IMG/VR virus record: IMGVR_UViG_3300006854_000001
Span: 62,001-126,000 of that record
Length of the DNA stretch: 64,000 nucleotides
Strand: one strand, 5' to 3'
From: a virus
Within the stretch, counting starts at the first letter, position 1. Every line of letters begins with the position of its first letter. Below, piece by piece: positions 819 through 38,969 of the stretch. Both the position numbers and the translations under genes were made by a program. The notes beneath the pieces were generated by a model that saw nothing but the letters and a program-made list of their open reading frames with translations, searched no databases and was not told the DNA's origin.

Positions 819-3104
819 TCACGCGAAGCCCGTGCCGCCCTGGCCCCAGTAATTGGTGCCGTCGTAGTAGAAGCTCGCGATGTTGACGGCGGAGGCGGTC
901 GTCACCCAGGTGGGTTGGGTGCCGTTCGACCACTTGACGGTAGCCGGCCACGTGCGCGTGAAGCCGCCCGTGCCTTCCAACATGCGCACCTGCACGTGGC
1001 GGGAGTTTGCCGGCGCCGTGAAGGTAAAGGTGACGTTGCCCGTCATCGTCACCTTTTGATTGGGTCCGGTCGTGAAATCGATCGTCAGCGAGGTGCCGCT
1101 GTTGCCCGCGTTGACTTCGTTGACGATGGGATTGCTGCCTTGAAAACCTTGCGATCCCTGGAAGCCCTGAGCACCTTGGGCGCCCGTCGCGCCTTGTGCC
1201 CCCTGCGATCCAGTGGTGCCCGTCGCGCCTTGAGCGCCTTGAGATCCCGTCGTGCCGGTAGCTCCCTGCGCGCCCTGAGAACCAGTGTTCCCCGTCGCGC
1301 CCTGGAAACCCTGCGCTCCGGTCGTGCCCGTTGCCCCTTGAAAGCCTTGCGCTCCGGTCGTGCCGGTCGCGCCCTGAGCACCTTGGCTCCCTGCACCGGT
1401 CGCGCCTTGAAACCCCTGCGCGCCCGTCGTCCCTGTGGCGCCCTGGAATCCCTGAGCGCCGGTTGTCCCCGTCGCCCCTTGAAAGCCCTGCGCGCCCGAT
1501 CCCGTCGCACCCTGGAAACCTTGCGCGCCCGTCGTCCCTGTGGCGCCTTGCGCGCCCTGCGATCCCGCGCCGGTTGCGCCTTGCGCGCCCTGGGCGCCAG
1601 TCGTCCCCGTCGCGCCTTGCGCGCCCTGAGCGCCCGTGGTGCCGGTCGCGCCCTGCGCACCCTGGCTACCTGCACCCGTTGCGCCCTGAAAGCCCTGCGC
1701 ACCGGTCGTCCCCGTAGCGCCCTGGAAACCCTGAGCGCCCGTCGTACCGGTCGCACCTTGTGCCCCCTGGCTACCCGCTCCGGTCGCGCCCTGGAAGCCC
1801 TGGGCGCCCGTTGCCCCCGTCGCACCTTGGAATCCCTGCGATCCAGTGGTGCCCGTCGCGCCCTGCGCGCCTTGGCTGCCCGCGCCCGTTGCGCCCTGGA
1901 AACCCTGAGCACCCGTCGCGCCCGTCGCACCTTGAAAGCCTTGGGCGCCCGATCCGGTCGCACCCTGGAAACCTTGCGCGCCCGTCGTACCGGTCGCGCC
2001 CTGCGCTCCTTGGGACCCCTGCGCACCGGTTGCACCCTGGAACCCCTGTGCGCCCTGAGCGCCAGTCGTCCCCGTCGCACCTTGGAACCCCTGCGCGCCC
2101 GTCGTGCCGGTTGCGCCCTGGAACCCTTGAGCGCCGGTCGTGCCCGTCGCGCCTTGGGCGCCTTGCGATCCGGATCCCGTGGCACCCTGGAAACCTTGCG
2201 CGCCCGTCGTACCGGTCGCACCCTGCGCGCCCTGCGATCCCGCTCCCGTTGCGCCCTGCGCGCCCTGGAAACCCTGCGTCCCCGTCGCACCTTGGGCGCC
2301 CTGAGCGCCGCCGCCAGCGCCCTGCGCGCCCGTCGATCCCTGCGCGCCCTGGAAGCCGCCGCCTTGAAAGCCCTGCGCCCCCTGGAAGCCCTGCGCTCCG
2401 GTCGCACCTTGGGCGCCCTGCGATCCCGCTCCCGTCGCGCCCTGCGCGCCGGCTCCCCCTTGGAACCCCTGCGCGCCCTGTAGTCCCTGGAAACCCTGCG
2501 CGCCCGTCGATCCCTGCGCGCCCGCGCCGCCTTGAAAGCCTTGCGCGCCCGCCGTGCCCTGAAAGCCTTGCGCTCCTTGGGCGCCTTGCGCGCCCGCGCT
2601 GCCCTGCGCGCCTTGCACGCCGGTCGATCCCTGAGCGCCTTGCGCGCCCGATCCCGTCGCGCCCTGTGCGCCGGCGCCACCCTGAAAGCCCTGCGTACCC
2701 GTGGCGCCTTGCGCGCCCTGGAAGCCGCCGCCTTGGAAGCCCTGCGCGCCCTGAAACCCTTGCACGCCCGTACTACCCTGGGCGCCCTGAGCCCCGCCAC
2801 CGGACCCCTGAAATCCTTGGGATCCCTGCGGTCCCTGTGCGCCCTGCGCCCCCTGGGCACCCATGCTGCCGCCCGTCGCTGGCACCCAGCGGCCCGGCCC
2901 AGCAATGGGCGCGATCACGAGCGGGGGGTTGGATGGCGCGGTCGAATCGCGGTGGAGCTCGTAATGCTCGTGCTCACCCGCGACGTAGCAAAAGCAGCCG
3001 TCGTCGAGCAGCTGAGTATTGATGTTTTCGAGGGAGTCGCTGCCACCGAGCAACATCGAGACGGAGCCGATGTTGCGGCTGGCGAGACTGGATCGATCGG
3101 CCAT
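819..3104 (-). CDS. Collagen-like fibre protein
   Basis: 761 residues in three parts. An N-terminal head of about 78 residues ([20 protein letters not shown] start). A central stretch of nearly 580 residues made of Gly-X-Y triplets, mostly [12 protein letters not shown] and GSQ, almost without proline. A C-terminal domain of about 100 residues ([20 protein letters not shown]...[15 protein letters not shown]...[11 protein letters not shown]), a pattern well known at the tips of phage fibres. The triplets should trimerise into a collagen triple helix. ATG is preceded by GAGGAG at about 13 nt. The gene is first behind the late-type promoter at 3198-3234, and two glycosyltransferase genes lie upstream on the same strand. 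Confidence 0.92.
1137..2868 (-). repeat. Degenerate tandem repeat encoding Gly-X-Y triplets
   Basis: The collagen part of the fibre gene is a GC-rich imperfect tandem repeat with 9-nt periodicity and longer units of roughly 24-36 nt built from GGxGCxCAG and GGxTTyCAG blocks. Such sequence is prone to slippage and length variation. Because the period is a multiple of three, several long antisense frames stay open; they are arginine-rich artefacts. Confidence 0.9.
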
Positions 3105-3237: not shown

Positions 3238-3957
3238 CTAGATCGCGCTCCTTGCAAATCGCGGCGAAGAATCCCATCCCCGAAATCGGCGCCCTTCAGC
3301 CATCGCCGCGCTTCCGGTGCTCCCGCTTCCCGCGTAGGGATCTACGACTAATCCTCCTGGCCTGGAGTAGCTGCGAATCAGGTATCGCAGCAATGGCTCC
3401 GGCTTCTGCTGAGGATGCACCCTCGATTTGCTGCTGGTCCCGACGCTGGCGAATTCCAGGACACTCGTCGGAAACCGATCGGTCGCACCGGCCCGGCTGT
3501 CATTCACCCGCGTCTGACGACCATAATTTTCACCGTGATGCGCTCGGCGGGCGGCATGGATGGGAGAGGCGCCTTGCAACATCTGCGGAATGTAGCAGCC
3601 CGGTCGTCGAGAAAATACCAAAATGAATTCGTGCGCGCGCAGGGGCTGGCGCTTGGCATTAAGGTGTCCGGTGGCGAGGCTCTTGGACCAGATCAGATCA
3701 TGTCGAAAGTACTTATCCTGAGAGGACTGGAGCGCCGCCGCAAAACGCAGAGACGACGCCATGAAAATGGCGATGCCGTCATCGGGCAGAGCGGTCCAAA
3801 CTGCTGGCCATAGCTCGGTCAGATCGGGGGCAACATCAAATTCCGCTCGGGTCTCTCCCGATGGCAGATCGGATAAGATCAACGACGCGCTCCCCGGCGG
3901 CAGGCTGCTGAGACCGACGATCCCGTCACCCAGCTCGATCAACGGCAGGTCACTCAT
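3238..3957 (-). CDS. DNA amino-methyltransferase, beta class (N6-adenine or N4-cytosine)
   Basis: 239 residues from ATG 3957, chosen over an upstream ATG at 4020 because MSDLPLIELGDG is the usual start of this family and the longer form would overlap the preceding gene. The catalytic motif IV region is SDLPSGE (about residues 29-35), a variant of the D/N/S-PP-Y/F motif seen in phage methylases. The SAM-binding motif VVDPYAGSGSTG lies near residue 212, after motif IV, which fits the beta order. HPQQKPEPLL is the usual motif X region. No endonuclease gene is adjacent, so protection of viral DNA is more likely than a restriction system. Target sequence unknown. Confidence 0.85.
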   Translation of the reverse strand: MSDLPLIELGDGIVGLSSLPPGSASLILSDLPSGETRAEFDVAPDLTELWPAVWTALPDDGIAIFMASSLRFAAALQSSQDKYFRHDLIWSKSLATGHLNAKRQPLRAHEFILVFSRRPGCYIPQMLQGASPIHAARRAHHGENYGRQTRVNDSRAGATDRFPTSVLEFASVGTSSKSRVHPQQKPEPLLRYLIRSYSRPGGLVVDPYAGSGSTGSAAMAEGRRFRGWDSSPRFARSAI

Positions 3958-3988
3958 GCAGTAGAGATCTCGGCATTCCCCAGATTCG

Positions 3989-4258
3989 TTAGTTCCCCGC
4001 GCGCCACTGCGAGCGGGCAAAGATCGCCTTCAGCATCCCCGTCGCCCTCTCGTGCCGCATCATCTTCAGCGCCGTTTCGCTGATCACGCTGAGGCCATTC
4101 ATGGGCGACAGCTGACGGTCCCGATGAAGGGCTTCCGCCGCCACGCCGATGAAGGCCGTCAGGATCTCGGTCGAGTCGTGGCCATCCAGAATGCCGCTCG
4201 ATTGCAGCTTGACGATGAGGCGCTCGGCGGCTTTTCCTACTTCAGTTTTTGCTGGCAT
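3989..4258 (-). CDS. Unknown small helical protein
   Basis: 89 residues, start MPAKTEVGKAAERLIVKLQS, predicted mostly helical, with no cysteine or membrane segment. It lies 2 nt after the glycosyltransferase-methyltransferase gene and 31 nt before the methyltransferase in the same minus-strand transcript. No family recognised. Confidence 0.6.
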   Translation of the reverse strand: MPAKTEVGKAAERLIVKLQSSGILDGHDSTEILTAFIGVAAEALHRDRQLSPMNGLSVISETALKMMRHERATGMLKAIFARSQWRAGN

Positions 4259-4260
4259 GT

Positions 4261-5670
4261 TCAGATCTCCACGATCCCCATCGGCTCGTAGCCTTCCTTC
4301 AACGCCACGAGATGTGCCTCCACGTAGGGGATCGCGTGCTCCTGATGGAAATCGTCCGGGTAGTAGGTGCGGAGGCGAATCGCCTGGAAGCGCGCCCGGA
4401 GGCCCTTCAGGTAGCGGGCGTGCGAGCCCTTCGTGTAATACCAGAATGAGTTTTCGTTCCAGAAGGAGACGTGGGTCGGGTCTTGGAAAGCGCCGCGACC
4501 TGCGCTCGCTACCCAGTGAAACTCGCCGCCGTCGCGCGCGACGACCGTCTCTTCGATGGGCGTCCGAATCATGGGACCCGTGGTCGACGGCACACGGATG
4601 AGGAGGAAGCCGCCCGGGGCGAGCACGCGGTAGGCTTCGTTCATGGTGTGGATGGGATCTTTGAGGTGCTCGATGGCGTCGTGCGCGCGGATCACGCCGA
4701 CGGAGTTGTCTTCGAGCGGCCAGCGCTGATCGAGGTCGTGACCGAGAGAGAGGTCGAGCGGTTGGTAGCCGGGGGCGGTGTCGATGGCACCGCAGAGATC
4801 GATCTTCGTCAAATAGTAGCCATCCGCCGTCAATGTGTCGCGAGCAAACTTCTCCGCGAGCGCGGTGATGTTTTGGTCGTACACGTCCTGGGTCAGGCGC
4901 TGAATGAGCGCGTTGTCTCTCGCGACGGTGTTACCGTTGTGGACGCGGTAAAAATACAAACACTCAGGGATGTGTTTGAAGCGGAGACCCGCGAGGAACA
5001 TCCGCACGATGAGCTCGTGGTCGTCGATGACGGGCAGGTCCGCGTTGTGGCCGCCGACCTTCCAGTACGCGTCCTTGCGCCAGGCGCGGAGGTGGTTCGG
5101 GGACCACTCGACGCGGCGGAGATTTTGCGGCGTCGCCGGGGGCTGCACGTGCGCACGGAGCTCGTGACCCTGGAAGGTGACGGGGTACGTTTTCCAGCCG
5201 TACTCGGAGGAGTAGGTGTTCGGGATCCAGCGCGCGTTTTTATGCGCCTCCCGGTGCGCATCAAGCAGCGCCTTCGGCGCGGCTGGATCTCTGCCGAGTA
5301 TTGCCAGATCGATCGGGTAGTCCACCTTAAACTCCGCCGTGTCCGAGTAGGCGAAGTCAGCGTGCGCGAGGGCAGCGATCGTTTTCTCGAGCGCCGTCTC
5401 GTGCAGCAAGTCGTCGTGATCGAGCTCGAGGAGAAAGTCGCCTATGGCGAGCTCGCAGCAGTGGCGTTTGATGGCACCGATGCCTTCGCACGTCGTGTCG
5501 ACATATACCTTGACGCGCGGATCGCTACGGATCTCACCCGGCAGCTTGCCGCCGTGGTTTTCGAGCACAACCCACTCGAAGTCCTGCACCGTCTGCGTTT
5601 TCAGCGTCTCCCAGGCCGCTTCGATGTAGGGGTTTCCGGATGCCGTGAGCGGCGTGAAGACGCTAATCAT
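4261..5670 (-). CDS. Family-2 glycosyltransferase fused to a SAM-dependent methyltransferase
   Basis: 469 residues. Residues 1 to about 250 form a GT-A glycosyltransferase: start MISVFTPLTASGNPY, nucleotide and metal site LELDHDDLLH with the DHDD acids near 84-87. From about 285 to the end is a type-11 methyltransferase half with GYQPLDLSLG, RAHDAIEHLKDP and YRVLAPGGFLLIRVP; the classical glycine-rich motif I is poor, so cofactor binding may be altered. The product would add and perhaps methylate a sugar. It sits between another glycosyltransferase and the fibre genes, which suggests decoration of the fibre or of a host surface glycan (inference). Confidence 0.85.
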   Translation of the reverse strand: MISVFTPLTASGNPYIEAAWETLKTQTVQDFEWVVLENHGGKLPGEIRSDPRVKVYVDTTCEGIGAIKRHCCELAIGDFLLELDHDDLLHETALEKTIAALAHADFAYSDTAEFKVDYPIDLAILGRDPAAPKALLDAHREAHKNARWIPNTYSSEYGWKTYPVTFQGHELRAHVQPPATPQNLRRVEWSPNHLRAWRKDAYWKVGGHNADLPVIDDHELIVRMFLAGLRFKHIPECLYFYRVHNGNTVARDNALIQRLTQDVYDQNITALAEKFARDTLTADGYYLTKIDLCGAIDTAPGYQPLDLSLGHDLDQRWPLEDNSVGVIRAHDAIEHLKDPIHTMNEAYRVLAPGGFLLIRVPSTTGPMIRTPIEETVVARDGGEFHWVASAGRGAFQDPTHVSFWNENSFWYYTKGSHARYLKGLRARFQAIRLRTYYPDDFHQEHAIPYVEAHLVALKEGYEPMGIVEI

Positions 5671-17008: not shown

Positions 17009-18175
17009 ATGCAAATCGTCGTCAACCGTCAAGATCTGCTCACCGTCCTCAAGCGCGCCGGCAGCGCCATCGATCCCAACACGATGCTCTCCGTGCAGAA
17101 AGGCGTCCTCATCGTCGCCAGCACGACAGCGGGCGAGCCCAAGCTCACCATTGGCGCGACGGACGGCCAGCTCGCGGTCGTGCAGAAGTTCGACCTCGGC
17201 GAGGTGAAAGAGCCGGGGAGCGCAGTCCTCACTTACCGCGATTTGCTCCAGCGCATCGACAACATGCCACCAGGCTTGATCGAGATCACGGTCGCTGCCG
17301 ACTTCAAGACCAGCATCCGGTCGAGCTCATCGAAGCGCAAATTCGCGATGACGGGGCTCGACCCCGTCGACTTCCCACCGCTGCTCAAGCAGCGGCCAGG
17401 TGAGGCCCTCTATTCTGTCGAAGCCAAGATCTTGCAGCAGTCCGCAAGCGAAACGGAGTTTGCGATCTCGAGCGACTTGACGCAGGGGATTCTCCTCGTG
17501 CCCGGTGACGACAAGATCTTCCAGCTCGTCTCGCTCGGCCGCTATGCCTTCGCCGTCGCGACCGGCTGGTTTACCGATCGCCATGGCGGCGAGAGCGCGC
17601 GCGAATGCCTCCTCCCCAAGAACCTCCTCGAGGCGGTAGGAGCGCTACCGAAGGAGGCCATCCTCACCCTGTCTGCCGACGAGCAAAAGATCTTCGTCTC
17701 GACACCCGATACCCTCATCATCGCCGGACAGCTGCAGACGCAGATGCCGGAGGTGTGGCGTCAGATCTTGAAGAGCGCGCCGACGCAGAAGCGCTTCCGG
17801 GTCTCGAGCGAGGCGTTCCTGTCGAGCGTGAAGGCGGTGTCGGTCGCGGCAGACTTCGTCGAGGGCGCGGAGCGGTTCGTGCAGATCGACGTGATTGCCA
17901 ACGAAGGGGAGGTCGTGATCCGCACGAAGGAGAGCAAGCGGAGCCAGGGCGAGGACGAGCTCATCGTCTCGGACGCGGCCCCTGGGAAATTCCAGCTGCA
18001 TGTCGACGCGGGACTCTTGTCGGCGGCGTTGCGGGCGTTCCAACCGACCGAGATCGATCTGTACTTCGATGTGATCGGAGGACAGGAAGCGCTCTTCCTC
18101 AAGAACGAAACCCTATCGGCGATGTTGCAGCTCATCGCCGTCATCCCGTCGCCGCCGCCGAAAGACAAGAAGTGA
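17009..18175 (+). CDS. dnaN: DNA polymerase III beta subunit (sliding clamp)
   Basis: 388 residues, the usual length of a three-domain beta clamp. It has the N-terminal pattern MQIVVNRQDLLTVLKRAGSA, LTIGATDGQLAVVQ, FAMTGLDPVDFPPL in the domain-1/2 region and, at the end, the domain-3 strands ending in LSAMLQLIAVIPSP in place of the usual VVMPMRL. The ring would tether a DNA polymerase, presumably the host enzyme, since no polymerase gene is in the window. Divergence and location among small phage genes argue for a long-resident viral copy rather than a recent host pick-up. Confidence 0.88.
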   Translation: MQIVVNRQDLLTVLKRAGSAIDPNTMLSVQKGVLIVASTTAGEPKLTIGATDGQLAVVQKFDLGEVKEPGSAVLTYRDLLQRIDNMPPGLIEITVAADFKTSIRSSSSKRKFAMTGLDPVDFPPLLKQRPGEALYSVEAKILQQSASETEFAISSDLTQGILLVPGDDKIFQLVSLGRYAFAVATGWFTDRHGGESARECLLPKNLLEAVGALPKEAILTLSADEQKIFVSTPDTLIIAGQLQTQMPEVWRQILKSAPTQKRFRVSSEAFLSSVKAVSVAADFVEGAERFVQIDVIANEGEVVIRTKESKRSQGEDELIVSDAAPGKFQLHVDAGLLSAALRAFQPTEIDLYFDVIGGQEALFLKNETLSAMLQLIAVIPSPPPKDKK

Positions 18176-24609: not shown

Positions 24610-24990
24610 CTACTCGACAACGAAATCGCGCAGCCAGTCCGCAACCACTCGCCAGTCCTTCTCTTTGCCTTCCGAGATCAGAAGCATCACCGCCACCGCA
24701 TCTTCGGTTGGCACACGGATCCGGATCCCATTCATTCTCAAAAACTGCCGCGCCATGACCCAGGCGGTGCGCTTGTTTCCTTCCACGAATGGATGACTGA
24801 GCGCCAAGTACAGGTAGGCGACAGCGACACCGATCTCGTCTTCATAGAGCAGTTGCCCTTCCCAAGTCGCGCGAGGCGAGTGCACGGCCGCGTCGAGTTC
24901 GTTGTGTTTCAAGATCCCGGCCATGCCGCCGTAGGCGGCGAGCACTGCGTCGTGGATGTCGAGCACGTCTTGCATCGACAGGAAATGCAT
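24610..24990 (-). CDS. doc: Doc-type toxin (Fic domain)
   Basis: 126 residues, the size of P1 Doc. The Fic motif HPFVEGNKRTA is complete: catalytic-site His, Glu-Gly-Asn-Lys-Arg. N-terminal IHDAVLAAYGG and the following GILKHNELDAAVHSPRAT fit the Doc family, which phosphorylates EF-Tu. It follows the antitoxin gene directly on the minus strand. The pair may be a phage addiction or anti-superinfection module. Confidence 0.9.
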   Translation of the reverse strand: MHFLSMQDVLDIHDAVLAAYGGMAGILKHNELDAAVHSPRATWEGQLLYEDEIGVAVAYLYLALSHPFVEGNKRTAWVMARQFLRMNGIRIRVPTEDAVAVMLLISEGKEKDWRVVADWLRDFVVE

Positions 24991-25221
24991 CTACCTGGCG
25001 AGCTCCCGCAAGATCGCTGCGTCTTCGGTCATGACCTCGTCGAGCATCCGCAAGAACACCTCTCGCGAAGGGCGACTGTCCGGACGCTCCAACACGATTC
25101 GGTCACTGTCAAAGCGCAGACTGAGCTCAGCGCCTTCGGGAACACCGATCGCTTTCAGGACCTGCGGCGGAATCGCGATGTATTGACTCCCACCGATCTT
25201 TCGCATCTTGATGTTTAACAT
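24991..25221 (-). CDS. AbrB/MazE-type antitoxin
   Basis: 76 residues from ATG 25221 (an upstream ATG at 25254 adds 11 unlikely residues). The swapped-hairpin pattern MRKIGGSQYIAIPPQVLKAI, GAELSLRFDSDRIVLERP is typical of SpoVT/AbrB DNA-binding domains; the C-terminal helix FLRMLDEVMTEDAAILREL would wrap the toxin. It precedes Doc with no gap. GTATAC at about 25231-25236 upstream could be part of an autoregulatory operator. Confidence 0.85.
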   Translation of the reverse strand: MLNIKMRKIGGSQYIAIPPQVLKAIGVPEGAELSLRFDSDRIVLERPDSRPSREVFLRMLDEVMTEDAAILRELAR

Positions 25222-25264
25222 TGTTCTACTTGTATACCCGATCGCGCACACCATCGCAAACCTC

Positions 25265-25716: not shown

Positions 25717-25962
25717 ATGTCGCAGCATCCCGACGGTCCGCCGCCTGAAACCTCAGAAGATCCGCAAAAACCCATCCACATCAACCTCCGACTCGACCCG
25801 GTGCATTATGCCGCGCTCCAGCGCATCGCCGGCGGCGCGCACCTGAAGGATCAGCAGGTTTTACGGCATTTGATTCGGATTGCCGACCGATTCATGCAGG
25901 GCAAAGCGTCGCCGTTCGTGGACAAACTCGAGGGGATTTTCCCTCAGCGCAAGGCTGGGTGA
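25717..25962 (+). CDS. Ribbon-helix-helix-like regulator
   Basis: 81 residues from ATG 25717. The core INLRLDPVHYAALQRIAGG followed by QQVLRHLIRIADRFM fits a beta strand plus two helices of RHH DNA-binding proteins. Position in front of the replication genes suggests control of that operon. A longer start at 25615 would add a basic head. Confidence 0.58.
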   Translation: MSQHPDGPPPETSEDPQKPIHINLRLDPVHYAALQRIAGGAHLKDQQVLRHLIRIADRFMQGKASPFVDKLEGIFPQRKAG

Positions 25963-25966
25963 GCGC

Positions 25967-27034
25967 GTGGGCACCCTCCTCGACGAGCAATTTTGGCTCA
26001 GCCAAAAGGTCCACGAGCTCGGCCCCATCGGCATCGCCGTCTGGAGCTGCATCATCCAGGGCAAACACGCCGCCGCCATCAACCTGCCGGGCTTGTACAA
26101 CATTTCGGTTGAGGATGTGTTCTGGCAGCTCGGCGGCGACCTGATGGGCCCTGACCTCAAGCGCGAGGTCGAAAACGGTTTCTGGCTCATCGTGGACAAG
26201 GCAATGGCTGTCTACGACCCTGCCTCACGGCAGGTGCGGATCCCCAACGTCTGGAAATATGCCCAGACCCCCAACCCGAACCAAATCAGCGGCTGGAAGT
26301 CGGCGTTTCTGAAAGCGCCGAAATCTGACTTCAAATATCAGCACTTACCGACGCTCAGAAAGCTCGCCGAGCGCTGCACGAACGGCGGGGTGCAGATGTT
26401 CGATGCGAGATTTGGGCTGCTCGTCCCGGGCGATCCGAGGACTTACCGTCTCGGTGAAAAATGGAAGCTCGGGGAGGAGTTACCTCCAGGTGTGCAGCCT
26501 TGGCTGGATCCTACAGATCAGGATCTCTCAGATAAAAAAATAGATCATTTATTTTTTTCTAGGAGAGAGGATCCCAGATCTCGATCTCTTACTCTGACTG
26601 ATACTCTTACTCTTACTCTTAATGGGGGTTCCCGAAGGGTTTCGAAAGGGTTCGAGAAGGGTTCCCCGGGGGTCGATGATGATAATGAGGAGGATGGGGG
26701 GTACGAAGATACCCGGGAAGGGTTCGGGAACCCTTCCGAAAGGGTTTCGAAAGGGTTCGAGAAGGGTTCTGGAACAGTTCGGGAAGGGTTTCCGAATCCC
26801 GACGTAGGAGCAGTGGATGACCGACGAGACCGATCTGTCACACCTCAGCGATCCGACCGAGAGTCCGGCCCAGCGCCCCGACGCGAGTCCCCTTCGCGAC
26901 CTCCCGGCGAGCCTTCGCCTCCGTTGGGAGTCGGTGGAGGGACCGTTTTTGAGGGAGCTGGAGGCGGAGGGTGGGCAGATGTGGTTGAGCTCCCGGTGCC
27001 CGATGGTCGCCCGAGTACTCGGAAGCGACAGTAG
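25967..27034 (+). CDS. Putative replication initiator (lambda O-like in layout)
   Basis: 355 residues from GTG 25967, 4 nt after the preceding stop. The first 120 residues look like a winged-helix replisome-organiser head: FWLSQKVHELGPIGIAVWSC, NISVEDVFWQLGGDL and a partner-like stretch IPNVWKYAQTPNPNQISGWK. From about residue 185 the protein becomes low complexity because it reads through an AT-rich tract and a DNA iteron array (VSKGFEKGS twice). The tail overlaps the loader-like gene by 218 nt in another frame. Initiator role is inferred from the layout. Confidence 0.6.
   Translation: MGTLLDEQFWLSQKVHELGPIGIAVWSCIIQGKHAAAINLPGLYNISVEDVFWQLGGDLMGPDLKREVENGFWLIVDKAMAVYDPASRQVRIPNVWKYAQTPNPNQISGWKSAFLKAPKSDFKYQHLPTLRKLAERCTNGGVQMFDARFGLLVPGDPRTYRLGEKWKLGEELPPGVQPWLDPTDQDLSDKKIDHLFFSRREDPRSRSLTLTDTLTLTLNGGSRRVSKGFEKGSPGVDDDNEEDGGYEDTREGFGNPSERVSKGFEKGSGTVREGFPNPDVGAVDDRRDRSVTPQRSDRESGPAPRRESPSRPPGEPSPPLGVGGGTVFEGAGGGGWADVVELPVPDGRPSTRKRQ
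26530..26800 (+). repeat. Candidate replication origin: AT-rich tract plus 11-bp-phased iterons
   Basis: An almost pure A/T stretch at 26532-26559; four TACTCT hexamers (26590, 26602, 26608, 26614); then iterons AAGGGTT(T)C at 26635, 26646, 26657 and again at 26718, 26740, 26751, 26762 and 26784, an inverted copy at 26728-26735 and a degenerate one at 26773. Direct copies within each block are 11 nt (or 22 nt) apart, one helical turn, not a codon multiple. A 30-nt block is repeated exactly at 26635-26664 and 26740-26769. Compare lambda ori, which lies inside gene O. Confidence 0.75.
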
Positions 27035-27755
27035 CGTGACAGCGGAATCGCTACCTGGTCTCCTGCGCAGTGAGACGCGAGCCTTTTGGCTCGGCGTCGA
27101 AGCGCGGCTCAGCGAGTGCGCGCGCTGTCCGAAGGAGGGCGCCGCGTGCGCAGAGACGGCGAGCCCGACGTTTAAAGCTGGCGCGCTCGTGCGTTTGCGC
27201 ATCCACGGCGAGGTCGCGCAAACAGAGATGAAGCCCTGCGAACGGTTTGGCGAATTTCGCATGGCGCGGCGCATGGCGAGCCTGGGAGTCGATGCGCGCC
27301 TCACGCGAGTGTCGCGGGCGAAGCTGAAGAAGCCGCCGCACATCGTGGAAGCGCTCGATGCCTTTTTGGATCAGGGCACGCGGCGCGATCCGCCGAGGGG
27401 TGTGCAGCTGTGCATCGAGGGCGAGTTTGCTCGCGAGTACGGCGTCGCCCTACTCCGCTCGGTTGCCGAGCGTTACTCAAACCACCCCCTCCGCTCCGTG
27501 CACGCTCCGACGCTGCTCCGCGATGTCAAGAACGCCATGACCGTGAAGGAAGAGTCGCCGATGAAGGCGCTGCTCGAGGTGAGCGTCTTGGTGATCGATG
27601 GCGTCGATGCGGAGGTGATGGGGGATAAGTGGTTTAGGAAAGAATTGGTTTGGCTCTACGAGCGGCGGCGAGATCAGGGTCTCGCGAGCGTTGTGACGAG
27701 CAGCGTTGCGCGGACCGGGGAAGCTTTCGTCGGCGCGCGCGTACTCAAGGTTTGA
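26817..27755 (+). CDS. Helicase-loader-like protein without a P-loop
   Basis: 312 residues from ATG 26817. N-terminal helical and cysteine-bearing part (SECARCPKEGAACAETAS, zinc-like as in DnaC/DnaI heads), then an AAA+-like core with GVQLCIEGEFAREYGVALL where a Walker A GxxGxGKT would be expected, and VLVIDGVDA as a Walker B-like strand. The lack of GKT means it probably cannot hydrolyse ATP. Next to the initiator with origin, it recalls the O-P pair of lambda. Starts at 26977 would avoid most of the overlap. Confidence 0.55.
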   Translation: MTDETDLSHLSDPTESPAQRPDASPLRDLPASLRLRWESVEGPFLRELEAEGGQMWLSSRCPMVARVLGSDSSVTAESLPGLLRSETRAFWLGVEARLSECARCPKEGAACAETASPTFKAGALVRLRIHGEVAQTEMKPCERFGEFRMARRMASLGVDARLTRVSRAKLKKPPHIVEALDAFLDQGTRRDPPRGVQLCIEGEFAREYGVALLRSVAERYSNHPLRSVHAPTLLRDVKNAMTVKEESPMKALLEVSVLVIDGVDAEVMGDKWFRKELVWLYERRRDQGLASVVTSSVARTGEAFVGARVLKV

Positions 27756-27758
27756 ATC

Positions 27759-28130
27759 ATGAATAAGAAAGAGAATTCGACGGGCTTCACTCTCACTGAG
27801 TTAGCGATCGTTGTTGCGATGACCGGGATATTGGCCGCGCTGGGGGTGGGCTTGGTTAAGCACATGATGGGTCAGCGCGCCGATTCGGAAGTCACGACTG
27901 GTCCAGACGGTAAGCCAGCGCTGCTCATTTCATGCCGCGAATCGGCCGATTGCATCCGTGATGCAGCGAAGAGTTGCCCGCGTGGATATTCGCTCGTGTC
28001 GCAACAGCAGGAGAAGGGGTCGCAGACGGTGTTCGTGGGGGACGGAGACGCGCCATTGATTCCGATGACGAACCAGACCTGGGAAGGCTCAATGCTGATC
28101 CGCTGCAGAGGGCAAGGAGCAAGTCCATGA
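27759..28130 (+). CDS. Type IV prepilin-like protein
   Basis: 123 residues. The first 33 are a class-III prepilin signal: short basic leader MNKKENST, cleavage after Gly9, then FTLTELAIVVAMTGILAALG with Phe+1 and Glu+5. A small soluble domain follows with four cysteines (ISCRESADCIRDAAKSCP and a C-terminal IRCRG). Pilin processing (PilD) and assembly would come from the host. It lies 3 nt after the loader gene, inside the viral operon. Pilin-like genes are unusual for a phage. Confidence 0.8.
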   Translation: MNKKENSTGFTLTELAIVVAMTGILAALGVGLVKHMMGQRADSEVTTGPDGKPALLISCRESADCIRDAAKSCPRGYSLVSQQQEKGSQTVFVGDGDAPLIPMTNQTWEGSMLIRCRGQGASP

Positions 28131-35465: not shown

Positions 35466-35911
35466 CCGAGCGGCTCATCCAGCGCGTGATCGAGGTCGTG
35501 GGTCAGTACTACGGCGCCGATCCGGTCGCGATCTTGACGCGCGACCGGCACCAGTCGCTGGTCATCGCTCGCCATACGGCCATGTACGTGAGTAGGCTCG
35601 TGAGTAACTTCTCTTACCCGCAGATCGGGCAAGCCTTCGGCCGCGACCACTCCTCCGTCATGAACGCCTGCAAGCGCATGGCGCATCGGAGCGTGAAGGA
35701 TGAGGAGTTCGGGAGGGCGGTGGATCTGCTGGTGCAGCGCTCGCGCGATGTGCGCGGGCACTTCTCGGGCGCCCCGGTCAGGATCCGCACCGAGCTCTTG
35801 CATCTGCTCGAGGCACGCGTGAAGCTCGGCATCTTCGGAGCGTCCGCAGAAGACATCGTCGACCGCATCTTGTGTGAGCACTTTCAGCGCGAGCTTCAGA
35901 AGAAACCGTGA
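35462..35911 (+). CDS. DnaA domain IV-like DNA-binding protein
   Basis: 149 residues from GTG 35462. Residues 5-80 match the C-terminal DNA-binding domain of DnaA: IEVVGQYYGADPVAIL, RHQSLVIARHTAMYVSRL, YPQIGQAFGRDHSSVMNACK (the DnaA signature D-H-S/T-T/S-V). No AAA+ domain precedes it. A second helical part follows (VRIRTELLHLLEARVK). It could bind DnaA boxes and compete with or recruit host DnaA; immediately upstream of dnaB. Confidence 0.85.
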   Translation: MTERLIQRVIEVVGQYYGADPVAILTRDRHQSLVIARHTAMYVSRLVSNFSYPQIGQAFGRDHSSVMNACKRMAHRSVKDEEFGRAVDLLVQRSRDVRGHFSGAPVRIRTELLHLLEARVKLGIFGASAEDIVDRILCEHFQRELQKKP

Positions 35912-37365
35912 CCGAAGTCCTTCGAATTCCTGATCCGACGCGGATCATGCCGGGCCGCACTCCGCCGGCAGATCTCGACGCCGAGGGCGCGATCCTCTCG
36001 TCGGTGCTGCTGGTGCCCGGAGATCTGGATCGCTGTCGAGCCGTCGGCCTCGAAGCCATCCATTTCTATGCGGATGACAATCGCCGCATCTACGAATCTA
36101 TCCTCAACCTCGACGAGGGGCACGAGGCGATCGATCTCGTGGCAGTCGCTGGCGATCTGCGTCTCCACAAGCGTCTGGATCAGGTGGGCGGCACGCCGTA
36201 CCTCGTGCAGCTCTGCGATGCTCCCGTGGTCGGACCGCGCCTCGAGCAGCACTGCCGCACGGTCATCACCGCTTGGCGAGCGCGCCAGGCCATCTCTTTC
36301 ACGCAAGTCACCATGGCGCGGCTCTACGAGCCGCAGGGGACGCCGTACCAGGAGCTGATCGAGCAGCACGAGCAACAGATCTGGGAGCTCGCTCACGAGC
36401 ATCGCGAGTCGACCTACGAGCCCGCCGGGCAGATCGCGGGCCGCGCGCTCACTGAGCTCAGCGAAGCCCTCCGGAACGGCACCGGACTCGGCGTCTCGAC
36501 TGGCTTCGATGATCTCGACAAGAAGACCGGCGGCTACAGTGAGGGGCACTTGGTCATCATTGCTGCACGCACGGGCATGGGAAAAAGTGCGCTCGGGACT
36601 TCTAGCATTCGGCGCGCAACGCGCGTGCCGAAGGATGGCAGTTTGCCGGTTGCGGCGTACCTGCACACGCTCGAGATGCCGAAGGAAGAATGCGCGCTTC
36701 GACTCGTCTGCGAAGAAGCGGGGGTGGAGTTTCAGAAGATGCGACACAACCAACTGACGCGTGGCGACTGGGAGAAGCTCTTTTCCGCCGCCCGATTGCT
36801 CGAGAGCCAACCGATCTTGATCGGCGACAAGCCGGGCCTCACTGTGGCGGAGTTTCGGTCCAACATCCGCAAGATCAAGCGCGAGATCGAGCTCGGTCGC
36901 ATTCCGGCAAAGAAGCTCGGGATCGCTGCCGTCGACTACCTGCAGCTCATGACGGGAGACAAGAGCGGCACGCGCGAGCTCGAAGTCTCTTCCTTGTCCC
37001 GGAACCTGAAAGCTACTGCCAAGAGCGAGCGCGTGTGTGTGCTCGCTCTTGCTCAGGTCAACCGCGAGCCGGACAAGAAGATCGGCGATCGCCGCCCGAA
37101 CCTGTCCACGCTCCGTGAGTCAGGGGCCCTCGAAAACGACGCGGATGCGGTCTGGTTTATTTACCGCGAGAAGTATTACAACAAGGACGCGAACGACGAG
37201 GCCGAGGTCATCATCGCCAAGCAGCGCGGCGGAGAAACCGGTACGGTGCTCCTCGCCTTCGATGGCCCGACGATCAGCTTTCGGCCCCTCGCTCGGGGGT
37301 ATGAGGAGTTTCACGAATTCGGCGACGAGCCTGACCCCGTCGAGCATTGGCAACCCGACAACTGA
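35908..37365 (+). CDS. dnaB: Replicative DNA helicase
   Basis: 485 residues, full DnaB length. N-terminal primase-binding domain starts PADLDAEGAILSSVLLVPGD; the RecA-like core has Walker A ARTGMGKSALG near residue 224, IAAVDYLQLMTGDK as Walker B, the arginine-rich RESGALENDADAVWFIYR motif and the final hexamer segment IAKQRGGETGTVLLAF. Unwinds DNA at the fork, probably loaded with the help of the 26817 product. No intein is present. Confidence 0.95.
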   Translation: MTEVLRIPDPTRIMPGRTPPADLDAEGAILSSVLLVPGDLDRCRAVGLEAIHFYADDNRRIYESILNLDEGHEAIDLVAVAGDLRLHKRLDQVGGTPYLVQLCDAPVVGPRLEQHCRTVITAWRARQAISFTQVTMARLYEPQGTPYQELIEQHEQQIWELAHEHRESTYEPAGQIAGRALTELSEALRNGTGLGVSTGFDDLDKKTGGYSEGHLVIIAARTGMGKSALGTSSIRRATRVPKDGSLPVAAYLHTLEMPKEECALRLVCEEAGVEFQKMRHNQLTRGDWEKLFSAARLLESQPILIGDKPGLTVAEFRSNIRKIKREIELGRIPAKKLGIAAVDYLQLMTGDKSGTRELEVSSLSRNLKATAKSERVCVLALAQVNREPDKKIGDRRPNLSTLRESGALENDADAVWFIYREKYYNKDANDEAEVIIAKQRGGETGTVLLAFDGPTISFRPLARGYEEFHEFGDEPDPVEHWQPDN

Positions 37366-37374
37366 GAGGAAAAA

Positions 37375-37707
37375 ATGAAGACCATTCTGTATACGATATT
37401 TGGGGTAGTGCTTGCCGCGTTGCTCGGCTCCGGAGCGCTGCTCCTGGGCGCGTATTACGTGTTCTCAGGCGGCTACATCCTGTCCAAGCTTTGGCAATGG
37501 AACGCCGTGCCGCTCGGGATGACGGCTCTCAGTTGGAAGGTGTTTGCGGCAGCGATTCTAGCTGCTCAATTGATTCGACCGAGTTGCCCTAAGGAAACTG
37601 ACCCTGACAAGGAGCAGCCCGAAACGACGAAAGTGGTCGCGACAGTCATTGCCGCGATGGCGGCTCCGTGGTTTACATTTCTGGTCGGCTGGATGGTGAA
37701 GCCGTGA
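37375..37707 (+). CDS. Membrane protein
   Basis: 110 residues, three hydrophobic segments: ILYTIFGVVLAALLGSGALL, AVPLGMTALSWKVFAAAILA and AAMAAPWFTFLVGWMVK. Preceded by AGAGGA ribosome site. Function unknown. Confidence 0.62.
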   Translation: MKTILYTIFGVVLAALLGSGALLLGAYYVFSGGYILSKLWQWNAVPLGMTALSWKVFAAAILAAQLIRPSCPKETDPDKEQPETTKVVATVIAAMAAPWFTFLVGWMVKP

Positions 37708-38969
37708 ACCCACGCGAAGCAGAAAAAGCACAGGCCGAGGGATGGTTTGATACCATCAGCAAGTGCTCGTACGATCGCTATCCACCTCCCGGCGTCACGC
37801 GCCCGAGCTATAGCCAGAAGGAAAGCGATGCCATCGACATCGTCGCCCTCTGGGCGCATGACCGATCGCTCCCGGTGCTGAGGGACTACGCCGGGAACCT
37901 CCACTGCATCCTGCGCGGGAATGGGCGTGGCCAAGCGATTGCGTTTGGGTCTCATGTCGACTCGGTGCCCAATGGTGGACGCTACGACGGCGTCGCTGGC
38001 GTCGTGGCTGGGATGTGCGCGATCGATCGCATACTGGGAGAAACGCTCGCGGGATCTACCTATACTGGTCCGCCGCTCCACCTGATGGTGCTGCGCGGCG
38101 AGGAGAGCGCCTGGTTTGGCAAATGTTACATCGGCAGCCTCGCTCTCTTTGGTCAGTTGCCGCCGGAATGCTTGGATCTCGAGCTGCGGTCGCCGGGCGC
38201 TATTCGGGAGATCCGGCAGTCCACTTTGGCGGAACAGATCTCAGCCCGGGGAGGCAATATCTCTGCCCTTCGTGCTCAGCTGATACAACCGCTCCCCTAT
38301 CCCATCGGTCGTTTCTACGAAGTGCACATCGAGCAAGGTCCCGAACTCGTGGAGCGGGGGATCCCGGTCGCGGTGGTCTCTGCTATTCGCGGCAACGCCC
38401 GCTACCTCAATGCCCGCGCGCAAGGCGAAGCGGGCCATTCGGGCACGACTCCGATGGAGACGCGGCAAGACGCGGTGATGCGGTTTGCACACTTCTTGTC
38501 GTGCATCGATGATCGGCGTGCCGACGATGCGCTCGTCACGGTCGGCGTCGCCCACACGAACGCCTCCCGCAACGCCGTCAGCATCATCGCGGACGAGCTA
38601 TTGTTTGCGCTCGAGGTGAGGAGCAACACCTCAGAGGGTCTCGATCAGATCCAGCACCTGTGCCAAGTGTACGCGACCAAGTACGGCATCGAGCTCGGAT
38701 CCTGCCAGCGCACGGATCCGGTCGTGCTCGACCGGAAGGTGCAGCAAGATCTAATGGAAGCGGTCCGCCAAGTGGATGGGGTCGACGTGCACGTGATGCC
38801 GTCGGGTGCCGGCCACGACGCGGCCGTCTTCCAGCAGAACCGCATCCCGACCGGCATGATCTTCATCCGCAACGAGCACGGATCTCACAACCCCCAAGAA
38901 GCCATGGACCTGAACGACTTTCTCCTGGCCGTCGACGTACTCCACCACGCTATCCAGAAAGGAATCTAG
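37704..38969 (+). CDS. M20 family hydrolase, N-carbamoyl-L-amino-acid or allantoate hydrolase-like
   Basis: 421 residues from GTG 37704, overlapping the previous stop; a GTG at 37668 would lengthen it. Metal ligands of the family are present: FGSHVDSVPNGGRYDGVAG (His, Asp), LRGEESAWFGKCYIGS (Glu), and NEHGSHNPQEAM near the end (His); the dimerisation domain has GEAGHSGTTPMETRQDAV. Such enzymes cleave N-carbamoyl or ureido bonds in hydantoin, allantoate and pyrimidine breakdown. Highly unusual in a phage; might recycle nitrogen or modify nucleotide or amino-acid pools (inference). Confidence 0.87.
   Translation: MNPREAEKAQAEGWFDTISKCSYDRYPPPGVTRPSYSQKESDAIDIVALWAHDRSLPVLRDYAGNLHCILRGNGRGQAIAFGSHVDSVPNGGRYDGVAGVVAGMCAIDRILGETLAGSTYTGPPLHLMVLRGEESAWFGKCYIGSLALFGQLPPECLDLELRSPGAIREIRQSTLAEQISARGGNISALRAQLIQPLPYPIGRFYEVHIEQGPELVERGIPVAVVSAIRGNARYLNARAQGEAGHSGTTPMETRQDAVMRFAHFLSCIDDRRADDALVTVGVAHTNASRNAVSIIADELLFALEVRSNTSEGLDQIQHLCQVYATKYGIELGSCQRTDPVVLDRKVQQDLMEAVRQVDGVDVHVMPSGAGHDAAVFQQNRIPTGMIFIRNEHGSHNPQEAMDLNDFLLAVDVLHHAIQKGI

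Follow-up and report, generated by a model that had tools for sequence, protein, structure and literature searches.

A probable replication origin within the presumed initiator gene of an uncultured phage of 135 kb

Origins inside the gene of their own initiator are known experimentally from Bacillus phage SPP1 and from lambda (PMC6316719, PMC7466680). SPP1 oriL lies within gene 38, adjoining the loader gene 39 and the DnaB gene 40 (PMC6316719), and the origins of lambda and the Stx phages lie within gene O (PMC7466680). A short-period repeat array inside a presumed replication gene of an uncultured phage raises the question of whether such an origin is present there as well, or whether the repeats reflect the coding sequence, a regulatory site or the binding of another protein. 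We thus analysed a 64,000-nt window (64% GC), corresponding to positions 62001-126000 of the 135,429-nt IMG/VR record IMGVR_UViG_3300006854_000001; coordinates below are those of the window. Since the first 120 nt of the record are identical to the last 120 nt, the assembly looks complete and circular, at about 135.3 kb.

A repeat array phased at the DNA level

The presumed replication initiator is encoded by an open reading frame of 355 amino acids with a GTG start (25967-27034, + strand). Within this gene, we located ten AANNNTT cores at 26635-26790, consisting of eight AAGGGTT copies (starting at 26635, 26646, 26657, 26718, 26740, 26751, 26762 and 26784), one inverted AACCCTT at 26729 and one AACAGTT at 26773. 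The core-to-core steps are 11, 11, (61), 11, 11, 11, 11, 11 and 11 nt, and the cores are thereby divided into two blocks. Block I (26635-26663) contains three AAGGGTT cores, with possible degenerate cores at 26624 and 26668, while block II (26714-26790) contains seven cores in an unbroken series that includes the inverted and AACAGTT copies. The AAGGGTT array with 11-nt spacing described in the original prediction is thus real, and its steps are exact within each block. Since the inverted and AACAGTT copies keep the AA...TT frame, the recognised feature may be the near-palindromic AANNNTT.

The motif is concentrated at this site: AAGGGTT or AACCCTT occurs 13 times in the whole 135,429-nt record, and nine of these copies lie in the array. 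No other 11-nt-stepped run of more than two AANNNTT cores was found in the 135-kb genome, and a whole-genome search with the same motif detected no second array comparable to SPP1 oriR. The longest tandem repeats of the window come from a different gene (819-3104, - strand), whose 761-aa product contains collagen triple-helix repeats (Pfam E=4.4e-64) and is possibly a tail fibre.

The repeats might simply result from the coding of a low-complexity linker, or from slipped-strand expansion, without serving as binding sites. Indeed, the initiator linker encoded by the array region is low-complexity, and 26635-26664 is exactly repeated at 26740-26769. This 30-nt duplication had been predicted correctly, with the correction that 105 nt, a multiple of the codon length, separate its two copies, so that the frame is kept between the blocks. 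We therefore compared the array with a null in which the same peptide was recoded synonymously using the codon usage of the phage. As a result, identical 7-mers spaced 11 or 22 nt apart were observed 15 times, whereas none of 2000 recodings contained more than 4, and the 7x11 profile score, the best in the 64-kb window, was 0.844 against a null maximum of 0.74 (0 of 1000). Furthermore, the 11-nt period places the ten cores in all three codon phases, the in-phase inverted copy is not a product of slippage, and the relative described below keeps the period with other letters. An origin by coding or slippage is thus very unlikely, and the earlier claim that the phasing is selected at the DNA level is upheld. 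The initiator coding sequence carries an array of specific direct repeats beyond coding expectation, as an embedded origin should.

An adjacent unstable element and a relative with the same layout

Upstream of the array lies an A/T-rich tract (26532-26558), the core of the presumed DNA unwinding element, in which 25 of 27 nt are A/T and two pure A/T runs of 11 and 12 nt flank GATC. The tract had been given as 28 nt; its extent is thus slightly revised, while its A/T richness does exceed synonymous expectation, with 31 of 39 A/T at 26528-26566 against a null maximum of 26 (0 of 20,000 recodings). The second part of the presumed element is a hexamer repeat, CTCTTA/TACTCT (26586-26621, + strand; TRF period 6). 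The predicted TACTCT hexamers are therefore present, but their period, being a codon multiple, proves nothing by itself; it is their A/T-rich codon choice that exceeds the synonymous null, in this phage and in its relative. By nearest-neighbour energies in 30-, 50- and 100-nt windows, no DNA of the whole 135-kb genome is less stable than 26512-26623: the least stable 30-nt stretch is the A/T tract, and the hexamers fall within the least stable 100 nt. An easily melted A/T-rich element is thus found beside the array, as in an embedded origin. No DnaA boxes were found near the putative origin with up to one mismatch allowed. The GC skew of the complete genome, a check suggested with the original prediction, gave no clean origin/terminus switch and is left out of the evidence. 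The skew does flip locally near 26.5 kb, but its global minimum lies elsewhere.

Since the array ends 26 nt before the start codon of the loader gene, the region could instead be an intragenic regulatory site, made up of repressor operators or a control element of the loader gene, rather than an origin. However, no sigma-70-like promoter and no Rfam match were detected, the A/T tract and hexamers that precede the array have the lowest stability in the genome, and the gene neighbourhood is that of an SPP1-type initiation module. A purely regulatory role is accordingly hardly credible.

Relatives were sought among viral contigs by protein, profile and DNA patterns, and among genome contigs; a single one was found, the 52-kb IMGVR_UViG_3300019874_000007 (L001). 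The other DNA-pattern matches (L003, L004, L006-L010 and L029-L040) lay in contigs of 28-45% GC and were rejected, and a tblastn check of L029-L040 found none related. L001 has the same gene order of a ribbon-helix-helix (RHH)-like gene, initiator and loader. The initiator is 46% identical to its L001 counterpart (4151-5212) overall and 43% in the N-terminal part, whereas the loader is 83% identical (L001 4992-5933). The A/T tract is near-identical in the two phages, against 45-60% identity for most of the flanking coding DNA, and in L001 too its A/T content is above all 20,000 recodings. The L001 hexamer is GATCTT (4751-4785, TRF), and its array is built from another unit of 11-nt period, ATCGSGAWG. 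Units at 4797 and 4808, and possibly a third at 4819, form a short block, and in-phase units over 4883-4959 (about 77 nt) form a long block, the counterpart of 26714-26790 in the window. The L001 array is weaker than that of the window; its 8x11 score nevertheless exceeds all 1000 synonymous recodings and its 7x11 score all but one.

Both phages therefore share an A/T tract, hexamers, a short block, a spacer and a block of about 77 nt at the same place in the initiator gene. Comparison with relatives, another check suggested with the original prediction, thus came out in its favour: in this one relative, the layout is conserved along with the initiator gene, despite altered codons and a different unit sequence. 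The pattern fits a DNA-level function whose recognition sequence would have diverged with the initiator while the loader stayed at 83%. The change of repeat tracks the change of initiator, as expected of a co-evolving site and binder; coming from one genome pair, this suggests such a relationship and does not prove it. The best circular match of the two units (p=0.016) is only suggestive of common ancestry.

The identity of the binder calls for consideration of the small RHH-like gene directly upstream of the initiator (25717-25962, + strand), which is syntenic in L001 (55% identity to 3923-4147); of the two copies, only that of L001 matched Pfam HicB/BrnA, below threshold. ParR and other RHH proteins bind arrays of direct repeats of about 10-11 bp, and parC of plasmid R1 comprises two blocks of 11-bp repeats. 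The array could accordingly be an operator, a partition site or an auxiliary part of the origin to which mainly the RHH-like protein binds, in which case the initiator would act at the A/T tract. The period and two-block layout resemble parC, the RHH-like gene adjoins in both phages, and a near-palindromic core with an in-phase inverted copy would suit a symmetric dimer. On the other hand, both phages have the same presumed DNA-contacting strand, NLRLD, though their repeat units differ, and it is the initiator that has diverged. No ParA-type ATPase was detected in the genome with working controls; a ParM-family search, in which the controls themselves were missed, carries no weight either way. 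A partition or operator role would also leave the extreme unwinding element, the loader and DnaB unexplained. We thus regard the RHH-like protein as unlikely to be the main occupant of the array, and favour the initiator.

The loader, the helicase and the initiator protein

The gene following the initiator (26817-27755, + strand) encodes a 312-aa DnaI/DnaC-like helicase loader. The protein matched NCBIfam PRK08939 DnaI with E=2.8e-5, far below the curated cut-off of NCBIfam, and the PHROG DnaC-like family with E=0.004; in BLASTP, it was 23% identical over 209 aa to the DnaC-like gp78 of Brevibacillus phage Jimmer1 (E=2e-8 for the pair). The match in annotated phages was only marginal, and plasmids gave no match. 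The loader-like nature of this gene, as predicted, is therefore borne out, and overall sequence homology to the DnaC/DnaI AAA+ helicase loaders is found. The Walker A motif (P-loop) GxxxxGK[ST] is absent from the loaders of both the window phage and L001: GEFAREYG aligns where the Jimmer1 protein has GDFGVGKS. A Walker-B-like VLVID is present, and the cysteines align partly with those of the Jimmer1 protein. The loader, having lost Walker A, may well be an ATP-independent relative of the AAA+ loaders. Immediately 3' of it, a small gene (27759-28130) has a product that carries an N-methylation motif like that of type IV pilins (Pfam E=0.00017).

The reading frames of initiator and loader overlap by 218 nt in different frames (26817-27034, + strand). 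The overlap is kept in L001 (4992-5212, 221 nt) with a corresponding stop position, and both frames are well conserved. Compared with loader-only sequence, it has a lower substitution rate (p=0.02) and a shifted codon-position pattern (p=0.03), both from small numbers, and the pattern is consistent with a dual-coding stretch in which both frames are used.

The phage also encodes its own DnaB-type replicative helicase (35908-37365, + strand; Pfam DnaB_C E=3.7e-75, DnaB N-terminal domain E=1.2e-16), in a single copy across the genome. At the sequence level, the adjacent loader gene and the DnaB expected of an embedded origin are thus both present. Among other replication functions are a DNA polymerase III beta-clamp homologue (17009-18175, + strand; Pfam PF00712 E=3.3e-12, PHROG_947 E=5.2e-29) and a ThyX-like thymidylate synthase; searches for two polymerase families, PolA and Pol III alpha, gave no match in the phage genome, with the profile controls working. 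An M20-family peptidase-like gene (37668-38969; Pfam E=2.1e-19), unusual phage cargo, adjoins the DnaB gene. On the strand opposite the replication module, a Fic/Doc-family gene (24610-25254, - strand; Pfam E=4.3e-12) and a MazE/AbrB-like antitoxin gene (E=5.9e-6) likely form a toxin-antitoxin pair, which is not evident at the equivalent place in L001.

The conserved N-terminal part of the initiator, of about 190 aa, is likely to be what binds DNA; the putative origin DNA and the overlap with the loader gene encode the remainder. The protein had been predicted to have a winged helix. Residues 7-108 indeed matched PHROG_1701 'DnaD-like helicase loader', marginally (E=0.0068), but hhalign against Jimmer1/GBK2-type DnaD-like initiators gave no significant profile match (E=0.68), and AlphaFold on two-sequence alignments returned mean pLDDT values of 38 and 35, the latter for the initiator. 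No match to the initiator was found in Pfam, NCBIfam or annotated phages, and PDB sequence searches gave none. The winged-helix assignment is thus at best weakly indicated.

Known origins and a proposed course of initiation

What was computed directly comprises the array and its exceptional phasing, the low stability of the DNA beside it, the conservation of the layout in L001, and the loader and helicase homologies. On this basis we consider 26512-26790, in the second half of the initiator gene, to be the replication origin of the phage, of the SPP1 oriL/lambda ori type, with a probability of roughly 0.8. The prediction of an origin inside the initiator gene is thus supported by the layout of L001, by the loader-like next gene and by DnaB in the genome.

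As in SPP1 oriL with gp38, gp39 and gp40, direct repeats and an A/T-rich unwinding element lie in the initiator gene, the loader gene is next, and the phage has its own DnaB. This likeness is one of layout. SPP1 differs in also having oriR, whereas no second array of this motif occurs here; here, moreover, the DnaB gene lies at a distance of about 8 kb, the loader, a DnaI/DnaC relative, has no Walker A, and the initiator-loader overlap is long. The origins of lambda and the Stx phages likewise have iterons and an A/T-rich tract midway along the initiator gene, with a loader gene next to it, and their iteron content varies between relatives, from four in lambda to six in Stx phages (PMC7466680). 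Lambda, however, uses the DnaB of its host, whereas the present phage has a DnaB of its own; its ten sites, one helical turn apart, form a block of three and a block of seven, and in gene direction they are preceded by the A/T tract. The iterons of lambda are also longer than those described here. Jimmer1, GBK2 and PSTCR7lys have initiator genes with internal repeat arrays as well. In the DnaD-like modules of Jimmer1 (gp77-gp78) and Geobacillus phage GBK2 (gp45-47), the array similarly follows the N-terminal part of the initiator and precedes the loader gene, but the units repeat mostly every 20-37 nt, and the Jimmer1 loader keeps its Walker A. Together with SPP1 and lambda, these cases mean that origins of the initiator-embedded kind are already established.

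By analogy with SPP1 and lambda, we infer that initiator binding, melting, helicase loading and the start of replication would take place at 26512-26790. The N-terminal domain of the initiator would bind the ten AANNNTT sites, which, being about one helical turn apart, lie on one face of the helix, and the protein would pack along these sites, three in one block and seven in the other. The packed initiator would strain and melt the adjacent A/T tract and hexamers, the DnaI/DnaC-like protein would then deliver the phage's own DnaB, and host primase and polymerase, with the phage clamp, would complete the replisome.

As read from the DNA, the variant features of this candidate origin are its one-turn iterons, the 3+7 arrangement, the upstream unwinding element, the loader without Walker A and the 218-nt overlap. 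They could amount to a distinct type of origin. Its initiator, a member of a new family, would coat one-turn sites as a continuous filament beside an upstream unwinding element and work with a P-loop-less DnaC-like loader, and the recognition unit could differ from one close relative to the next with no change in the remainder of the origin; we put this forward tentatively, as a doubtful extension.

Sequence alone has thus pointed to where an uncultured phage of 135 kb probably starts its replication, in a testable system of one gene and one site. With the same layout, a near-identical loader, a different iteron and a diverged initiator, the two phages constitute a natural specificity-swap experiment. 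Furthermore, a P-loop-less DnaC-like loader would help to separate the loading role of such proteins from their ATPase role.
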